A stretch of DNA of 22,780 nucleotides from the IMG/VR virus record IMGVR_UViG_3300037507_003678, positions 1 to 22,780 of that record; one strand, 5' to 3'. Under the pieces are notes generated by a model. It worked only from the letters and a program-made list of their open reading frames with translations. It did no database searches and was not told the origin of the DNA. This stretch comes from a virus. Positions 2,868 to 13,234 of this stretch are shown piece by piece; position 1 is the first letter of the stretch; each line of letters begins with the position of its first letter. Made by a program: the position numbers and the translations under genes.

Positions 2868-3250
2868 ACTGGGCCGAACTGCGTGCGCAGCTCGCCTGCA
2901 CTGACCGTGGCGACGAGATGTGCGTCGACCCGTGGCGGCCGCAGCACCAGCGCGCCAGACAGGAACGGGCCGGCCTCGCCATCTGCGCCGACTGCCAGCA
3001 CCTCGACCGGTGCCGGGCGTGGGTGCTGCGCCAACCCGACGACCCGTCGCCGGTCATGGTCGTCGGCGGCATGACACCAGGGCAGCGGCGCAAGTACCGC
3101 CACGGCGGCGACGCCTGCGGGACCGCCGCCGGGTACTGGCGGCACCACCGCAACGGCGAGGAGGCGTGCCGGCCGTGCAAGCAGGCAGTGAACGAGGCGC
3201 GACGGGACTACCGGGCGCGACGCAAGAACGAGGGAAGGGGAGCGGCGTGA
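2864..3250 (+). CDS. second WhiB-like protein with extra C-terminal domain
   Basis: A 128-residue protein from ATG 2864 (ATGA overlap). It carries a WhiB-type cysteine set: Cys12 (ACTD), then CADCQHLDRC (Cys41, Cys44, Cys50; C-x2-C-x5-C), followed by VVGGMTPGQRRKYR, which occupies the place of the canonical G[VI]WGG loop. The tryptophan of that loop is absent, so sigma-factor contact may be altered. The C-terminal part (CGTAAGYWRHHRNGEEACRP, with Cys102 and Cys105) matches the extra module of the first WhiB-like protein and may bind zinc. It could be a transcription factor or, since the loop is degenerate, a competitor of host WhiB proteins; both are inferences. Confidence 0.82.
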   Translation: MNWAELRAQLACTDRGDEMCVDPWRPQHQRARQERAGLAICADCQHLDRCRAWVLRQPDDPSPVMVVGGMTPGQRRKYRHGGDACGTAAGYWRHHRNGEEACRPCKQAVNEARRDYRARRKNEGRGAA

Positions 3251-4548
3251 GTGTCCAATACCTAGTCGGCGACACGCGAGAGCAGACCGCCACCATCGCA
3301 GACGGCAGCGTGTCACTGGTGGCGTGCTCGCCACCGTTCATCGCCCTACGGTCATACCTGCCCGCCGATCACCCGATGAAGCACGCCGAGATCGGTAGCG
3401 AACCCGACCCGGCGACGTTCCTCGACACGCTGCTGACACTGACCGCCGAGTGGGGCCGGGTGCTCGCACCGTGGGGCAGCATCGCCATTGAGCTTGGGGA
3501 TACGTTCGCCGGTTCCGGTGGTGGAGGTGGCGACTACAACCCGGGCGGGCTGCGTGAAGGCCAGCAGGTGTTCAGCGGGAGTGCAGCCAAGCGGGCACGA
3601 TTGGGCGGGGCAGACAACGACAGACCGGCGCGCTCTGGCCGTGGATCAACCTGGCCCCGCCCGAAGTGCCTCGCACTCGTGCCGCAGCTCTACGCCGCCA
3701 GCCTCGCCTACGGCCGCAACCTGCTCACCGGCGAACCGTCACCCGCCGGGCAGTGGCTGGTGCGCAACATGATCGTCTGGCATCGCCCGAACCCGGCGGT
3801 CGGCGCGTTGGGCGACAAGTACCGGCCGTCCACGTCGTACATCACCGTCGCCACCCGGTCACCGAAGCGGTGGTTCGACCTGACGGCGGTGCGTGCCCCG
3901 GGTCCCGATCCGAAGCCATCACAGCGAGGCGCTACCGAGTTCGAGCGCAACGGCGATCTCGGCAAGGCACGAAACGGCACAGTCGGCATGGACCGAAACC
4001 CCGCTGGTGCCCCGCCGCTCGACGCCTGGTTCGACGAGCACGACACCTGGACGATGACCACGCAGCCGTCGAGCCTCGCCCACTACGCCATGTGGCCGGC
4101 GAAACTGGCCGAGCGGCTGGTGCTGTCGATGTGCCCGGCCGAGGTGTGCAACGTGTGCGGCGAGCCGCGGCGGCGGGTTGAGCGCATGGACTACATCAAA
4201 CTCCAGGCGACGAACAACCAGACCGAGCGGGTGGGTCACGTCGGTGTCAACGGCGCGGGCGCTGACCCGACGTTCAAGCATGGACGCGCCAACTCGTCGC
4301 CCGTCACTCTCGGCTGGACCGACTGCGGCCACGACAACTACCGGCCCGGCGTCGTACTCGACCCGTTCGCAGGCACCGGCACCACCCTCGCTGTTGCTGA
4401 CTGCCACGGCCGCGACGCCATCGGCATCGACATCGACGAACGCAACCACGCCCTCTACCCATCCAGGTACGCCGAGGTGCGCAAAGCACTGTTCGGCACC
4501 CGGCCGGAGACACCCGGCCAACTCGACCTGTTCGGGGGTGCAGCGTGA
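3247..4548 (+). CDS. DNA methyltransferase with SPPF motif (probable N4-cytosine type)
   Basis: A 433-residue beta-class amino-methyltransferase starting at GTG 3247 (GTGA overlap). Motif IV is SPPF (residues 28-31), the form typical of N4-cytosine enzymes, and motif I is DPFAGTGTT (372-380) followed by IGIDIDERN. A potential zinc site is built from CNVC (Cys301, Cys304) and CGH (Cys360, His362) just before motif I, as in many phage methyltransferases of this size. AHYAMWPAKLAERLV before the zinc site corresponds to the usual helix of this family. The large glycine-rich insert after motif IV may form the target-recognition region. It is unlike the first methyltransferase in size and motif IV, so it probably has a different target. 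No restriction partner is adjacent. Confidence 0.9.
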   Translation: MSVQYLVGDTREQTATIADGSVSLVACSPPFIALRSYLPADHPMKHAEIGSEPDPATFLDTLLTLTAEWGRVLAPWGSIAIELGDTFAGSGGGGGDYNPGGLREGQQVFSGSAAKRARLGGADNDRPARSGRGSTWPRPKCLALVPQLYAASLAYGRNLLTGEPSPAGQWLVRNMIVWHRPNPAVGALGDKYRPSTSYITVATRSPKRWFDLTAVRAPGPDPKPSQRGATEFERNGDLGKARNGTVGMDRNPAGAPPLDAWFDEHDTWTMTTQPSSLAHYAMWPAKLAERLVLSMCPAEVCNVCGEPRRRVERMDYIKLQATNNQTERVGHVGVNGAGADPTFKHGRANSSPVTLGWTDCGHDNYRPGVVLDPFAGTGTTLAVADCHGRDAIGIDIDERNHALYPSRYAEVRKALFGTRPETPGQLDLFGGAA

Positions 4549-8666: not shown

Positions 8667-8716
8667 CGATGAACCGCTTACCGCTGTCCCCACCTCTGAC
8701 GATGAAAGGCCAACCC

Positions 8717-9220
8717 ATGACCCGCACCCGTATCGACGTCCAACTCGCTGCAGCCGCCACCCTGCTCGACCGCCTGGCGTCGTCGTACCCGTCGGCGCTC
8801 GGCCACCTCGCCCGCGAGCTGCTCGTGCTTGACGGTATGCCCGACCACACTAGCGGCGCCGGTATCACCCGTGGCGCCGGCAGCGACGTCGAGGCGCTCA
8901 CCGCCGTCGAGCGGGTCGCCGCCAGCCGGGTGCACTTCTCGACCGAGCTTGACACGTTGCGCGAGGACGCCCAAGCGGTCATTGAGATGATCGGCGCCTT
9001 GGCGCACATGATCGACCGGGCCATCGGCCTGCGTGCGCCGATCGCTGTGTCACGGTGTCGCGATTCGCTGCCCGGCCGTGACGGCGGCATGGAGTGGGGC
9101 GACCCGACCTGCGAGGAGATCCCGGCGAAGGCTGGGCTGTGCTCGGCGTGCTACCAGCGTGAGCGGCGCTGGCGCATCGGTGAGGGGCTGGCGGTTCGGG
9201 ATGTCGTCGATGCTCGATGA
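8717..9220 (+). CDS. hypothetical protein with C-terminal zinc-finger-like cysteines
   Basis: I choose ATG 8717 over the in-frame ATGs at 8669 and 8702 because GAAAGG lies at the right distance before it; this gives 167 residues. The N-terminal two thirds are helical and alanine/leucine-rich. The C terminus has Cys114, Cys132 and CSAC (Cys142, Cys145), then RERRWRIGEG, a pattern that could bind one zinc ion and touch nucleic acid. No family is recognised. It is the last gene before the 9221-9526 non-coding region and so may act on it, but that is only positional reasoning. Confidence 0.7.
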   Translation: MTRTRIDVQLAAAATLLDRLASSYPSALGHLARELLVLDGMPDHTSGAGITRGAGSDVEALTAVERVAASRVHFSTELDTLREDAQAVIEMIGALAHMIDRAIGLRAPIAVSRCRDSLPGRDGGMEWGDPTCEEIPAKAGLCSACYQRERRWRIGEGLAVRDVVDAR

Positions 9221-9276
9221 AACCTGGTCGCTGACCTGCGTCGATGTTGGACAATGAAACCAGAAACCTGTAGTCT
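9217..9276 (+). promoter_or_regulatory. sigma70-like promoter with direct repeats
   Basis: TTGGAC (9247-9252) and TAGTCT (9271-9276), separated by 18 bases, resemble -35 and -10 elements and point toward the packaging and structural genes. ATGAAACC occurs at 9217-9224 and again at 9254-9261, and AAACCTG at 9220-9226 and 9264-9270, so an operator overlapping the promoter is possible. The first repeat also overlaps the upstream stop codon. The location, at the start of the only long gap before the late genes, supports a promoter role. Confidence 0.45.
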
Positions 9277-9333
9277 TGGTGTAAGTCGCCCGTCGTGTGC
9301 AGCAGCACCGGCGGGCGTTGCCGTTGTCGGGGC

Positions 9334-9523
9334 CATGCATCGGTCTTGCATGCATATATGCATGACCATGCAGTCGCCATGCATGAAGGGGAGGGGGCGG
9401 GGCGTTCACGTACGCGAAACGCCTGCTAGAGCACCCCGCCGCTTCTCGTCTCTCTCTCCGAGGCTCACCGGGGGTGCATGATCGGTGCATGAACATGCAT
9501 GAATGCATGCATGGAGGTGCATG
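9334..9523 (+). repeat. two inverted arrays of TGCAT cores forming a 190-bp dyad
   Basis: Arm A (9334-9383) reads CATGCA, 7 bases, TGCATGCAT, 2 bases, ATGCATG, 2 bases, CATGCA, 5 bases, CATGCA. Arm B (9475-9523), read on the other strand, has the same order with 6 instead of 7 bases in the first spacer. All 34 core bases match while the three equal-length spacers share 0 of 9 bases. The outer edges are centred at 9428.5, exactly the centre of TGCT-AG-AGCA (9424-9433). A perfect 16-bp palindrome lies at 9349-9364. Arm B runs over the ribosome-binding site of the HNH gene. The interval 9221-9526 holds no credible gene. The layout suggests a multi-subunit DNA-binding site such as a packaging site. 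Confidence 0.85.
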
Positions 9524-9526
9524 ACG

Positions 9527-9814
9527 ATGCCCGCAAAGGACCGCATCCACTACGCCGGGTCGTACGACAAGCGCGCCCGCCTGGTTCGCGAGCGGGCCTA
9601 CGCCGATCTCGGCACCCGCTGTTGGCGGTGCGGTCGCACGCTGGCCGAGGAGCAGCGCCTGGTGCCGTGGAAGCGGGTCACCTGGCACGCCGGCCACACG
9701 GTCGACGGTGACAACTCGGCGCCACTGATGCCTGAGCACTCGACCTGCAACCAGCGGGCCGGTGCGATGGCTGGCAATCTGGCCCGCAACCCGAAGGGAA
9801 CTCGCTGGTGGTGA
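9527..9814 (+). CDS. HNH endonuclease
   Basis: A 95-residue protein with a classical HNH fold: CWRC (Cys32, Cys35), WHAGH (His54, His57), Asn63 and MPEHSTCN (His71, Cys74, Asn75). The cysteines should bind structural zinc and the histidines the catalytic metal. I choose ATG 9527 because GGAGG at 9513-9517 is nine bases upstream; ATG 9521 is too close. In HK97-like phages an HNH protein encoded beside the large terminase stimulates terminase cleavage and is needed for packaging, and this position fits that role. A homing endonuclease is less likely because the gene is compact and in line with the operon. Confidence 0.87.
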   Translation: MPAKDRIHYAGSYDKRARLVRERAYADLGTRCWRCGRTLAEEQRLVPWKRVTWHAGHTVDGDNSAPLMPEHSTCNQRAGAMAGNLARNPKGTRWW

Positions 9815-10059
9815 CCGACGACGATCGCCGCCTACGCCTGGAGCGGCTGCGTGACCAGCTCACCGCTGCGATCGAGGCGTGCAGCGACAACATGCTCCCG
9901 CAACTGGCAGGGCAGTTGCGGGCGACGCTGGCCGATCTGGCGGCGTTGCCGGAGCCCGTCGAGAGGCAGTCACTCACCGATGAGCTCAAGCAGCGTCGTG
10001 CAGCGCGTCGGCGCTCAGCGGCCGAGACTCCAGCACCTGCCTCCGGGTCAGGTCAGTAG
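9811..10059 (+). CDS. candidate small terminase subunit
   Basis: An 82-residue, mostly helical protein from GTG 9811, overlapping the HNH stop (GTGA); GTG 9808 is an alternative start. It contains heptad-like leucines (LRLERLRDQL, LAGQLRATLADLAALPEP) and a basic tail (KQRRAARRRS). Short proteins of this character commonly precede the large terminase in actinophages and act as DNA-recognition subunits, but no sequence signature proves it. The large-terminase frame overlaps its last 80 bp. If it is the small terminase, the dyad at 9334-9523 would be its natural target. Confidence 0.5.
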   Translation: MTDDDRRLRLERLRDQLTAAIEACSDNMLPQLAGQLRATLADLAALPEPVERQSLTDELKQRRAARRRSAAETPAPASGSGQ

Positions 10060-11416
10060 CGCCGGACAGGACGCCGTCGACTTCGCCGCTGCGTGCGGCC
10101 TGGTGCTCGACGACTGGCAGGCGTGGTGCCTGGACAAGATGCTCGGCGAGGACGCAGCGGGTCGGGCGTTGGCCACGACGGTGCTGCTGATCCTGCCCCG
10201 CCAGAACGGCAAGAACGCCGTGCTCGAGGCGCTGGAACTCTACGCCTTCTACGTGCTCGACGAGCCTCGCATCCTGCACACGGCTCACCTGGCCAAGACG
10301 GCCGCCGATCACATGCAGCGCATGGTGGCGCTGGTGCGATCGAACCCCGACCTCGACGAGGTCACGCACGCCTACTTCGCCAACGGCAAGGAGGCGCTGC
10401 AGCGTCGGGACACCGGCGCCCGGCTGGAGTTCATCACCCGCGGCCGCAAGACGGCCCGTGGTGGTTCGCCGACCCGGGTGGTGTTCGACGAGGCGCTGTT
10501 CCTGCTCGACGAGCAGGTGCAGTCGATCCTCCCGGCGATGTCTGCGCAGTCGATGCGTGCCGACCCGCCGCAACTGATCTACACGTCGTCTGGTCCGTTG
10601 CCGGAGTCGGTGGTGCTACACCGCCTGCGCCGTCAGGGCATGGCCGGCGAGTCGCCCCGGATGTTCTTCGCCGAGTGGTCGTGCGAGGTCGGCACCGACC
10701 TGCGTGACCGTGACGCGTGGTACGAAGCGAATCCCGGTCTCGGTATCCGCATCAGCGAGGACTGGATCGCCGGTACCGAGCTGGTGCAGATGTCGCCCGA
10801 AGGGTTCGCCCTCGAGCGGCTCGGCATCGTGGTCGCCGACGACGGTGCGCACGCACACCTTCCCGGCTGGGAGGCGTGTCGTGCAACGAAGTCGAAGTTG
10901 GACAAGCCGCCGACGTCGGTGGCGGTGGCGGTCGGGCCTGGCGGCCAGTGGTCGTCGGTGGCTGCTGTCGGTGCGTGCGCCGACGGTCTGCCGTACGTCG
11001 AGCTGATCCGGCGGGAGCCGGGCACTGCGTGGCTCGTTGCCGAGGTGCAGGCCGCTCACCAGGCGGTCGGCGTGCCGATCGTGATCGACCCTCGTTCGCC
11101 GTCGGTGGGCGTGATCGACGAGATCAAGCGTGCCGGTGTGCCGGTCACCGAGTCGACCACGGCCGACTATCTGCGCTCATGCGCTGCTCTGCAGGACGCC
11201 GTCGGCAACGCCAAGGTGCGCCACTTCGGCGACCAACCACTCGACGCTGCCGTGGTCGGCGCCGACATCCGCTCCGTCGGTGAGGCGTGGGCCTGGTCGC
11301 AGAAGGCGTCGACGGTGGACATCACACCACTCGTCGCCGCGACACTCGCTCTCGGCGCATGGAACGCACCGGCTGCCCCCGAATCCGAGGCTTGGGCCTC
11401 GCTGATCGACCTGTGA
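9980..11416 (+). CDS. terminase large subunit
   Basis: This 478-residue packaging motor protein has an ATPase domain with Walker A LPRQNGKN (72-79), Walker B VVFDEA (167-172) and a coupling motif YTSS (201-204). The C-terminal half is an RNase H-like nuclease domain with Asp370 (IVIDPRSP) and Asp447 (TVDITPL). The first nuclease strand reads VAVAVGPGG (314-322), where homologues usually carry a metal-binding aspartate. The start at ATG 9980 overlaps the preceding gene by 80 bp; it keeps the family's N-terminal RPRLQHLPPG...SSAG segment, so a later start would cut conserved sequence. It drives genome packaging into the prohead through the portal. Confidence 0.93.
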   Translation: MSSSSVVQRVGAQRPRLQHLPPGQVSSAGQDAVDFAAACGLVLDDWQAWCLDKMLGEDAAGRALATTVLLILPRQNGKNAVLEALELYAFYVLDEPRILHTAHLAKTAADHMQRMVALVRSNPDLDEVTHAYFANGKEALQRRDTGARLEFITRGRKTARGGSPTRVVFDEALFLLDEQVQSILPAMSAQSMRADPPQLIYTSSGPLPESVVLHRLRRQGMAGESPRMFFAEWSCEVGTDLRDRDAWYEANPGLGIRISEDWIAGTELVQMSPEGFALERLGIVVADDGAHAHLPGWEACRATKSKLDKPPTSVAVAVGPGGQWSSVAAVGACADGLPYVELIRREPGTAWLVAEVQAAHQAVGVPIVIDPRSPSVGVIDEIKRAGVPVTESTTADYLRSCAALQDAVGNAKVRHFGDQPLDAAVVGADIRSVGEAWAWSQKASTVDITPLVAATLALGAWNAPAAPESEAWASLIDL

Positions 11417-11423
11417 GGTGACG

Positions 11424-11564
11424 ATGGACAAGCGCATCACCTCGGCAGTGGAGATCGCTTCGGCGGCCGCGCTGGTCATCGGCGCTGCGATGGTTGCCGG
11501 TGCTGCCGGCTGGATCGTCGGCGGTCTGCTCGGCATGGTGTTCGCTTGGCGGGCCGGGCTGTGA
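11424..11564 (+). CDS. small membrane protein between terminase and portal
   Basis: A 46-residue protein from ATG 11424 with GAGGTG upstream; its stop overlaps the portal GTG. After a short charged start (MDKRITSAVE) it is almost entirely small hydrophobic residues, alanine/glycine-rich (LVIGAAMVAGAAGWIVGG, then LLGMVFAW), enough for one long or two short membrane helices, ending in RAGL. Function is unknown. The overlap and lack of an alternative frame support expression. Confidence 0.5.
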   Translation: MDKRITSAVEIASAAALVIGAAMVAGAAGWIVGGLLGMVFAWRAGL

Positions 11565-13234
11565 GTCTGCTGTTCCGCACCCGCAAGCCTGCCGAGGTCG
11601 AGGCCGAGCGCAGCCAGATCAGTTTCGCCGAGTACACGAAGCTCATCGAGCCGTGGTTGCCGTGGTTCTCGCAGCAGCCGAAGTCTCGCGAGCACACCGA
11701 GCGCACCCTGGCAGGCATGACCCGCCAGGCGTACGGCACCTCGGGCGTGGCGTTCGCGTGCGCAGCGGTGCGCATGCAGGTGTTCAGTGAGGTCACCTTC
11801 CGCTGGCAGGATCTTGCCAGCCGCCGACTGTTCGGCAACGCCGAGCTGTCGCCGCTGGAGTCGCCGTGGCCGGGTGCTGCGACCGACGACCTGCTGGCAC
11901 GCATGGAGCAGGACGCGACGATCTGCGGCAACTCGTACTGGATCAGCGCCGGTTCGCTGGTGCGCACGGACGGCCTGCAGTTGCAGCGCCTGCGCCCGGA
12001 GTGCGTGACGATCATGCTCGAGCCGGTCGAGCACCGCTTCGGCGGTGTGATCGGGATGCGCAAGGCCGGGTACGTCTACACCGAGGACGACAAGAGCGAG
12101 CCGGTGCTGCTCGACCTAGAGGAGGTGGCGCACTTCGCGCCGCTGCCCGATCCTCGGGCCCAGTTCCGGGGCATGTCGTGGCTGTCGGCGGTGCTGCCCG
12201 ACGTGGACATCGACACGTCGATCCAAGACTTCAAGCAGTCATTCCTCGACAACCAGGCGACGCCGAACCTCGTTATCTCGTTCGATCCGTCGGTGTCGCC
12301 GGAGACGTTCAAGCGTCTCACCGAGGTGATCCGGTCGAAGGCTGCAGGCACGGCGAACGCCGGCAAGACGCTCGCCCTCGGCGGCGGTGCCGACGTGAAG
12401 GTCGTCGGCTCCAACTTCGAGCAGCTCGCCGTGAAGGCGGTGCAGGGTGCGGGTGAGACTCGGATCGCTGCTGCTGCTGGTGTGCCGCCGGTGATCGTCG
12501 GCCTCAGCGAAGGCCTGTCCGGTTCGTCGCTGAACGAGGGCAACTACGGCCAGGCGCGCCGCCGGTTCGCCGATGGCACGATGCGCCCGAACTGGCGCAG
12601 CGCTGCGACCGCTCTGGCGACACTGGTGCGCCCGCCCGCGGGTGCACGGCTGTGGTTCGACGCTTCCGACGTGGCGTTCTTGCAGGAGGACGTCGCCGAC
12701 GATGCGGCGATTCGTGAGGCGCATGCCCGCACGATTCGCCAACTGGTCGACGCTGGTTTCACGCCGTCGGCGGCGGTGTCGGCGGCGGTCGACGGCAACT
12801 TCGACGGTCTCGCTGCGGCTCATTCGGGCCTGTTCAGTGTGCAGTTGCAGCCTCCCGGGTCGGGTGATCAGCCTGCCCGTTCGGAGATGCTGGTGCCGCT
12901 CGTCGAGGAGCGCACCACGGCGCCGGAGATGCATTTCCATCTGCCCGACTCGATCGACGTGCAGATGCGCCAGGAGCCGATCATCATCCCGGCTCCGGTG
13001 GTCAATGTGCCTGCCCCGATCGTGAACGTCACGGTCGATCCGACGCCGGTGCAGGTCGACGTCGCTGCCCCGGTGGTCAATGTCGCTCCGGCCGAGGTCG
13101 TCGTGAATGTGCCCCCGGTGCAACTCGAACTGCTGCCCGCTGCCGAGTCCGACGGGCCCGAGCGCAAGAAGGTCACCTTCAAGCGCGACAAGGACGGCCG
13201 CATCATCTCGGCTGAGATGGTCGAGGAGGACTGA
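11561..13234 (+). CDS. HK97-type portal protein with repetitive C-terminal tail
   Basis: A 557-residue portal protein, the dodecameric ring through which DNA enters the head. It shows the phage_portal (HK97-like) hallmarks: an early YGTSGVAFACAAVRM segment, the DATICGNSYWI strand, RLRPECVTIMLEP, a VAHFAPLPDP...GMSWLSAV segment, and GVPPVIVGLSEGLSGSSLNE. Residues about 470-535 are an appended valine/proline-rich repeat (APVVNVPAPIVNV and variants), and the end reads VTFKRDKDGRIISAEMVEED. That tail is not needed for the portal fold and may form beta-structure on the outside of the connector. Start is GTG 11561, overlapping the previous TGA. Confidence 0.93.
   Translation: MSLLFRTRKPAEVEAERSQISFAEYTKLIEPWLPWFSQQPKSREHTERTLAGMTRQAYGTSGVAFACAAVRMQVFSEVTFRWQDLASRRLFGNAELSPLESPWPGAATDDLLARMEQDATICGNSYWISAGSLVRTDGLQLQRLRPECVTIMLEPVEHRFGGVIGMRKAGYVYTEDDKSEPVLLDLEEVAHFAPLPDPRAQFRGMSWLSAVLPDVDIDTSIQDFKQSFLDNQATPNLVISFDPSVSPETFKRLTEVIRSKAAGTANAGKTLALGGGADVKVVGSNFEQLAVKAVQGAGETRIAAAAGVPPVIVGLSEGLSGSSLNEGNYGQARRRFADGTMRPNWRSAATALATLVRPPAGARLWFDASDVAFLQEDVADDAAIREAHARTIRQLVDAGFTPSAAVSAAVDGNFDGLAAAHSGLFSVQLQPPGSGDQPARSEMLVPLVEERTTAPEMHFHLPDSIDVQMRQEPIIIPAPVVNVPAPIVNVTVDPTPVQVDVAAPVVNVAPAEVVVNVPPVQLELLPAAESDGPERKKVTFKRDKDGRIISAEMVEED

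Follow-up and report, generated by a model that had tools for sequence, protein, structure and literature searches.

The stretch of DNA analysed here (the window) comprises 22,780 bp from a virus (IMG/VR record IMGVR_UViG_3300037507_003678) that carries a WhiB gene, a protease gene, and a capsid gene, and whose large terminase (TerL) has mainly actinobacterial phages as cultured relatives. Between positions 9334 and 9523 it contains two mirror-image arrays of the word TGCAT. Genes for a small HNH-type protein, a probable small terminase (TerS), and TerL lie to the right of the arrays, so that the interval has both the location by the terminase genes and the HNH partner that are expected of a cos site. 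The interval is very probably the cos site of a cos-packaging actinophage with an HK97-like TerL (phrog_9), in which mirrored arrays bracket the cut.

The paired TGCAT array

The left arm (9334..9384, plus strand) holds a five-core TGCAT array with its edge bases and has the layout CATGCA-N7-TGCATGCAT-N2-ATGCATG-N2-CATGCA-N5-CATGCA. The right arm (9475..9523, minus strand) is a mirror copy of this array, and its reverse complement follows the same layout except for an outermost spacer of N6 where the left arm has N7. The extent of the array and the opposite orientation of its arms had been proposed in an earlier sequence-only reading and were borne out on re-checking, as were its figures for the match between the arms: equal-length spacers agree at 0 of 9 positions and cores at 34 of 34 bases, the latter being partly true by definition since cores were picked because they match. 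The count of eleven TGCAT in that reading is correct for the plus strand only; when both words (TGCAT and ATGCA) are counted, there are 19 in the 190 bp. This is the highest count of any 190 bp; 500 dinucleotide shuffles of the window reached 6 at most and 3.1 on average. The TGCAT array is thus real and far beyond chance. Outside the array the window has 16 such words against 30 ± 6 expected, a shortfall that is not clear in other relatives, for which a simpler null was used.

The most constant unit of the array is the 14-bp palindrome TGCATGNNCATGCA, with the looser form TGCATN4ATGCA. In the window it occurs at 9359..9372 (TGCATGACCATGCA) and at 9486..9499 (TGCATGAACATGCA), 127 bp apart from start to start. 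Across 33 relatives' contigs the exact 14-bp motif is restricted to this element, and the sole stray match, with one mismatch, is found in G016/L099. The minimal unit is TGCAT-N4-ATGCA, with at least one copy on either side of the predicted cut. The spacing of the pair in 13 lineages shows a mild clustering near 10.5 bp (null fraction 0.006), which is suggestive only of helical phasing.

Equal divergence of cores and spacers in relatives had been named in the sequence-only reading as an outcome that would refute its packaging-type site. This outcome is not seen: in the relatives the cores persist and the spacers diverge. The right arm differs from that of L028 at 3 of 37 core positions and 6 of 12 spacer positions, and from that of L015 at 3 of 37 and 4 of 12, respectively. 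In two further relatives, L008 and L014, a gene has been inserted where the array begins on the left, and the outer left arm is a new one that retains most of the TGCAT cores and has new spacers. The insertion is about 386 bp long, contains a P-loop-like open frame, and is located at window position 9332/9335 (L008:1281-1667 and L014:4099-4485).

Contig ends and the predicted cut

A TerL search of IMG/VR yielded contigs that end within the array. L004 and L012 begin at window position 9445, and L015 and L028 begin at the base homologous to 9445, as aligned through the spanning relative L031. These four contigs come from four metagenomes and differ in sequence (L004 and L012 are 97% identical; identity to the window is 90% for L015 and about 81% for L028), yet they share one start base. 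L009 begins at 9456, 11 bp further in. On the other side, a fifth lineage (L105/L059) ends at the base that matches 9433 in an ungapped alignment. Furthermore, both ends of the contig L096 (33,848 bp) lie in the element, its start in the right part and its end in the left; its palindromes are located at 42-55 and 33775-33788 and nowhere else, so that L096 resembles a complete linear genome that carries a TGCAT palindrome at either end. L088 (37,051 bp), which belongs to a palindrome-free lineage, begins right of its site and extends to just past HNH. Contig ends upstream of TerL also cluster in the wider TerL family, where a 130-nt stretch 170-300 nt from TerL holds 15 of 30 (binomial p 3e-13 against a uniform distribution). 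Where present, the palindromes flank the contig ends on both sides and are putative binding sites.

The left (9433) and right (9445) contig ends of the relatives leave a gap of 11 nt. Contigs ending at blunted 3' overhangs would leave such a gap, and an 11-nt 3' cohesive end, CCCCGCCGCTT (9434-9444), is therefore predicted, with the top strand cut after 9444 and the bottom strand opposite 9433/9434. Many mycobacteriophages have 3' overhangs of 10-11 nt. The record of pa33, a cultured phage related by its TerL, ends with TCGTACGGCTT, which corresponds to the 11-nt overhang described in P. acnes phages. Ends with 11 bases of 3' overhang, CTCGTAGGCAT, occur in cluster K mycobacteriophages (PMC10793342).

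Near the centre, the conserved features are ACCCCGCCGCTT (9433..9444, plus strand) and the pyrimidine run on its right. ACCCCGCCGCTT is identical in L031 at 12 of 12 positions, although the sequence to its left has diverged there. The right inner flank (9445..9474, plus strand), consisting of the pyrimidine-rich run and CCGGGGG, is conserved in L028 and L031, and the left inner flank (9385..9432), which is purine-rich and contains non-conserved dyads, is diverged in L031. The sequence-only reading had drawn attention to a small central palindrome, TGCTAGAGCA (9424-9433), and to the dyads GGCGGGG/CCCCGCC and GGCGTT/AACGCC. All of these are present in the window; they are altered in L008 and L014 and lost in L031, are probably incidental, and were rejected as a functional core because they are not conserved. 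Neither TGCT-AG-AGCA nor the dyads are thus supported as the conserved centre. Relative to the middle of the palindrome, the predicted cuts are displaced to the right by about 5 and 16 bp.

Spread and exchange of the element

A blind search of IMG/VR by pattern, for TGCATN4ATGCA units paired at a distance of 88-118 nt, returned 25 contigs, where about one would be expected by chance (an estimate from the 20 fixed bases). In 24 of the 25, the pair adjoins a phrog_9 TerL, and in many of these HNH and TerL flank it or an HNH-TerL fusion lies downstream of it. The remaining match, L128, is located beside a gene for a polymerase (PHROG 'RNA-dependent RNA polymerase') and appears to be a chance match. 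A search of 257 Gb of bacterial genomes matched the exact pair twice. One match is an array of terminator-like repeats (L118) and the other an intergenic pair (L119); judged by eye, neither resembles a packaging site, and these matches did not reveal the host. In the L118 match (L118:4049-4279, on a Desulfuromonadales contig), three units of about 108 bp stand in tandem, and each contains a hairpin-like repeat that surrounds TGCATGTNCATGCA.

Mapped onto a TerL tree of 54 rows, the distribution of the element requires 10 gains or losses, of which 9 are forced by supported branches, and tree neighbours with and without it occur (for example L057/L075 and L073/L074). The rows bearing the element came partly from the motif search, and contigs with a right end only show one side of it. 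Moreover, the element is exchanged between phages. Relatives share the genome of the window up to a mosaic boundary at 9332..9333 and then differ: past 9332 they carry another HNH/cos/TerS/TerL module, and they rejoin inside the portal frame (12936-13230). The array is thus swapped as one block with HNH, TerS, TerL, and the start of the portal gene, and the boundary coincides with the left edge of the array.

A probable cos site and its alternatives

The proposal of a cos- or pac-type packaging site in the sequence-only reading is well supported by the contigs that end at one base in the array and by L096, which starts and ends in the element, and because of these same observations cos is favoured over pac. 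A cos site would have both genome ends fixed, and this is what the assemblies of relatives indirectly indicate, through L096 and L088 and through the shared starts at 9445. In the favoured model, a dimeric or multimeric DNA-binding protein would occupy both arms and join them by looping or wrapping the roughly 127 bp between them. TerL, helped by the neighbouring HNH protein, would then cut at 9433/9434 (bottom strand) and 9444/9445 (top strand) and leave the 3' cohesive end, so that every packaged genome would carry one array at each end.

Several observations weigh against this model. Contig ends could be assembly breaks, although a break at a mosaic joint is disfavoured as the mosaic break lies at 9332 and not at 9445. 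The close lineage of the window itself gave no left-hand contig end, and the end at 9433 comes from one diverged relative in an ungapped alignment. In contigs of the L054 lineage, the right-hand ends follow the CCCCG start by 7 nt only, so that the length of the overhang may not be constant, or ends may have been trimmed; left-end contigs of the L054 type were looked for and none was found. Finally, ten cultured relatives that were checked have no such pair, which is therefore not needed for cos in general. At the ends of cultured relatives only weak paired words were seen, as in EmiRose, which has a single TGCAT-N3-ATGCA to the left and a single ATGCA to the right. No similar DNA was found in cultured phages.

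A headful pac start like pacL-pacC-pacR of SPP1, at which only the first cut would be sequence specific, is improbable. It shares the two-sided layout, with the TerS sites pacL and pacR bracketing pacC (PMC4856287), and would suit the restriction to right-hand contig ends in the window's own lineage. An SPP1-type pac would, however, combine one fixed end with permuted genomes, which would yield site-spanning reads and no fixed contig end, whereas both ends of L096 and of L088 lie at the site, and its left side is where L105 and L049 end. An HNH partner and a phrog_9 TerL with 3' overhangs are, in addition, typical of cos phages. Similarly unlikely is the reading of the arrays as operators for a phage regulator of the late operon, to which the closeness of cos would be incidental. 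The right arm does lie just upstream of HNH-TerS-TerL, and palindromes are typical of repressor sites, but the element flanks fixed ends on both sides in at least five lineages (the window, L031/L028, L096, L030/L093, and L054/L067), and in some of these lineages the HNH stop codon precedes the left unit. The interval 9150-9700 contains no match to a sigma-70-like promoter, which is weak evidence in an actinophage.

Short-repeat arrays with near-helical spacing also occur at replication and partition sites, and the array would fit an origin or a centromere-like site in this respect. The element nevertheless always lies by the packaging genes and brackets fixed contig ends, and no adjacent Rep or Par gene was seen in the lineages examined, which makes such a role very improbable. 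The roles in replication, partition, or late-gene control that the sequence-only reading had left open are thus less likely than that of a packaging site.

Comparison with known packaging systems

The proposed cos site shares with those of HK97 and actinophages the fixed ends, the location between or beside HNH and TerS-TerL, a short (here predicted) 3' overhang, and specific recognition sequences (here putative) adjoining the cut. In HK97 the 3' overhang is 10 nt long and TerS needs a single 15-bp stretch that occupies positions 15-29 bp from the cut on one side (PMC11331095), and the cut is stimulated by the HNH protein gp74 (PMC11331095, PMC9410871). The difference is that HK97 has a single, one-sided TerS site, whereas here a repeated 14-bp palindrome brackets the predicted cut. 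To our knowledge, how the cut site is found in HK97-like cos phages with HNH partners is known in detail for HK97 only.

Lambda, whose ends are 5' overhangs of 12 nt, likewise has repeated binding sites beside a staggered cut (cosQ-cosN-cosB), but its R sites lie on one side and are not TGCATN4ATGCA, whereas the sites here lie on both sides. A lambda-type cosB, with TerS R sites on one side of cosN and an IHF site, is not what is seen, because the sites are two-sided and the TerS model lacks a helix-turn-helix. In lambda the DNA topology matters, and the host protein IHF bends cosB (PMC4856287). With SPP1 pac, the element has in common that sites, putative in the present case, bracket the cut (PMC4856287), and it differs in its two fixed ends and in having arms that mirror each other. 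A cos-type cut with repeats on both sides would have, as far as we know, its only similar arrangement so far in SPP1 pac, and a mirrored-array cos, two-sided like SPP1 pac and with fixed ends, would be new. The paired-TGCATN4ATGCA rule, with about 90-115 bp between the two units, locates packaging sites of uncultured actinophages by sequence alone and predicts their genome ends closely; it also points to a putative binding partner common to several terminase lineages.

Proteins that may bind the arms

The small terminase had been suggested as the protein that binds the arms. This is doubtful, since its structural model (mean predicted local distance difference test score 75) consists of a helical hairpin and a C-terminal helix with no helix-turn-helix, and the element comes and goes on the TerL tree. 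For these two reasons the cognate TerS is unlikely by itself to be the binder. Its comparison with solved structures gave no informative fold match. Candidates would be the HNH protein, a mobile phage protein, or a host protein, of which a host or mobile phage accessory protein fits the phylogenetic scatter better than the small terminase. Beyond TerL, portal, and HNH, no protein was common to all element-bearing contigs, which are partial. Tentatively, a non-terminase protein, probably from common actinobacterial hosts, might bind TGCATN4ATGCA and fold the site for cutting. Such a protein would be an IHF-like but sequence-specific packaging factor, so far undescribed, and would explain the presence of one element across divergent terminases.

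Neighbouring genes

The small HNH-type protein (9527..9814, plus strand) was assigned from its position and its CWRC...AGH...CN motif; its open frame extends from 9503, inside the right arm. It has no Pfam or PHROG match, and BLASTP relatives are found in other element-bearing phages. The probable TerS of 82 aa (9811..10059, plus strand) was assigned from its position before TerL and from homology within the family. The TerL open frame (9851..11416, plus strand; phrog_9, E 4e-63) overlaps TerS, and the true TerL start probably lies inside the frame, after this overlap. It is followed by the portal gene (11546..13234, plus strand; Phage_portal, E 3e-31). To the left of the site lies a conserved gene (8669..9220, plus strand), which would lie at the right end of the packaged genome in the cos model.

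Five cultured relatives with linear records (BaileyBlu, CallinAllBarbz, EmiRose, pa33, and Sleepyhead) have the order HNH last, the ends, a first small gene or TerS, and TerL; the end genes of pa33 are annotated as 'hypothetical'. The HNH gene of the window sits to the right of the site, unlike in these five. In some contigs HNH is fused to the N-terminus of TerL (L120:1432-3162, L125:5174-6868, and L132:2630-4324, all on the minus strand), with the TGCAT element just upstream, and these fusions fit a direct cooperation of HNH and TerL. L088 encodes a Cys-rich protein with an HNH-like end (L088:126-1208) between the inferred genome end and TerS, and its lineage has a second HNH at the opposite genome end. 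The window also carries two N6/N4-type DNA methyltransferase genes, at 419-1276 and 2920-4548.
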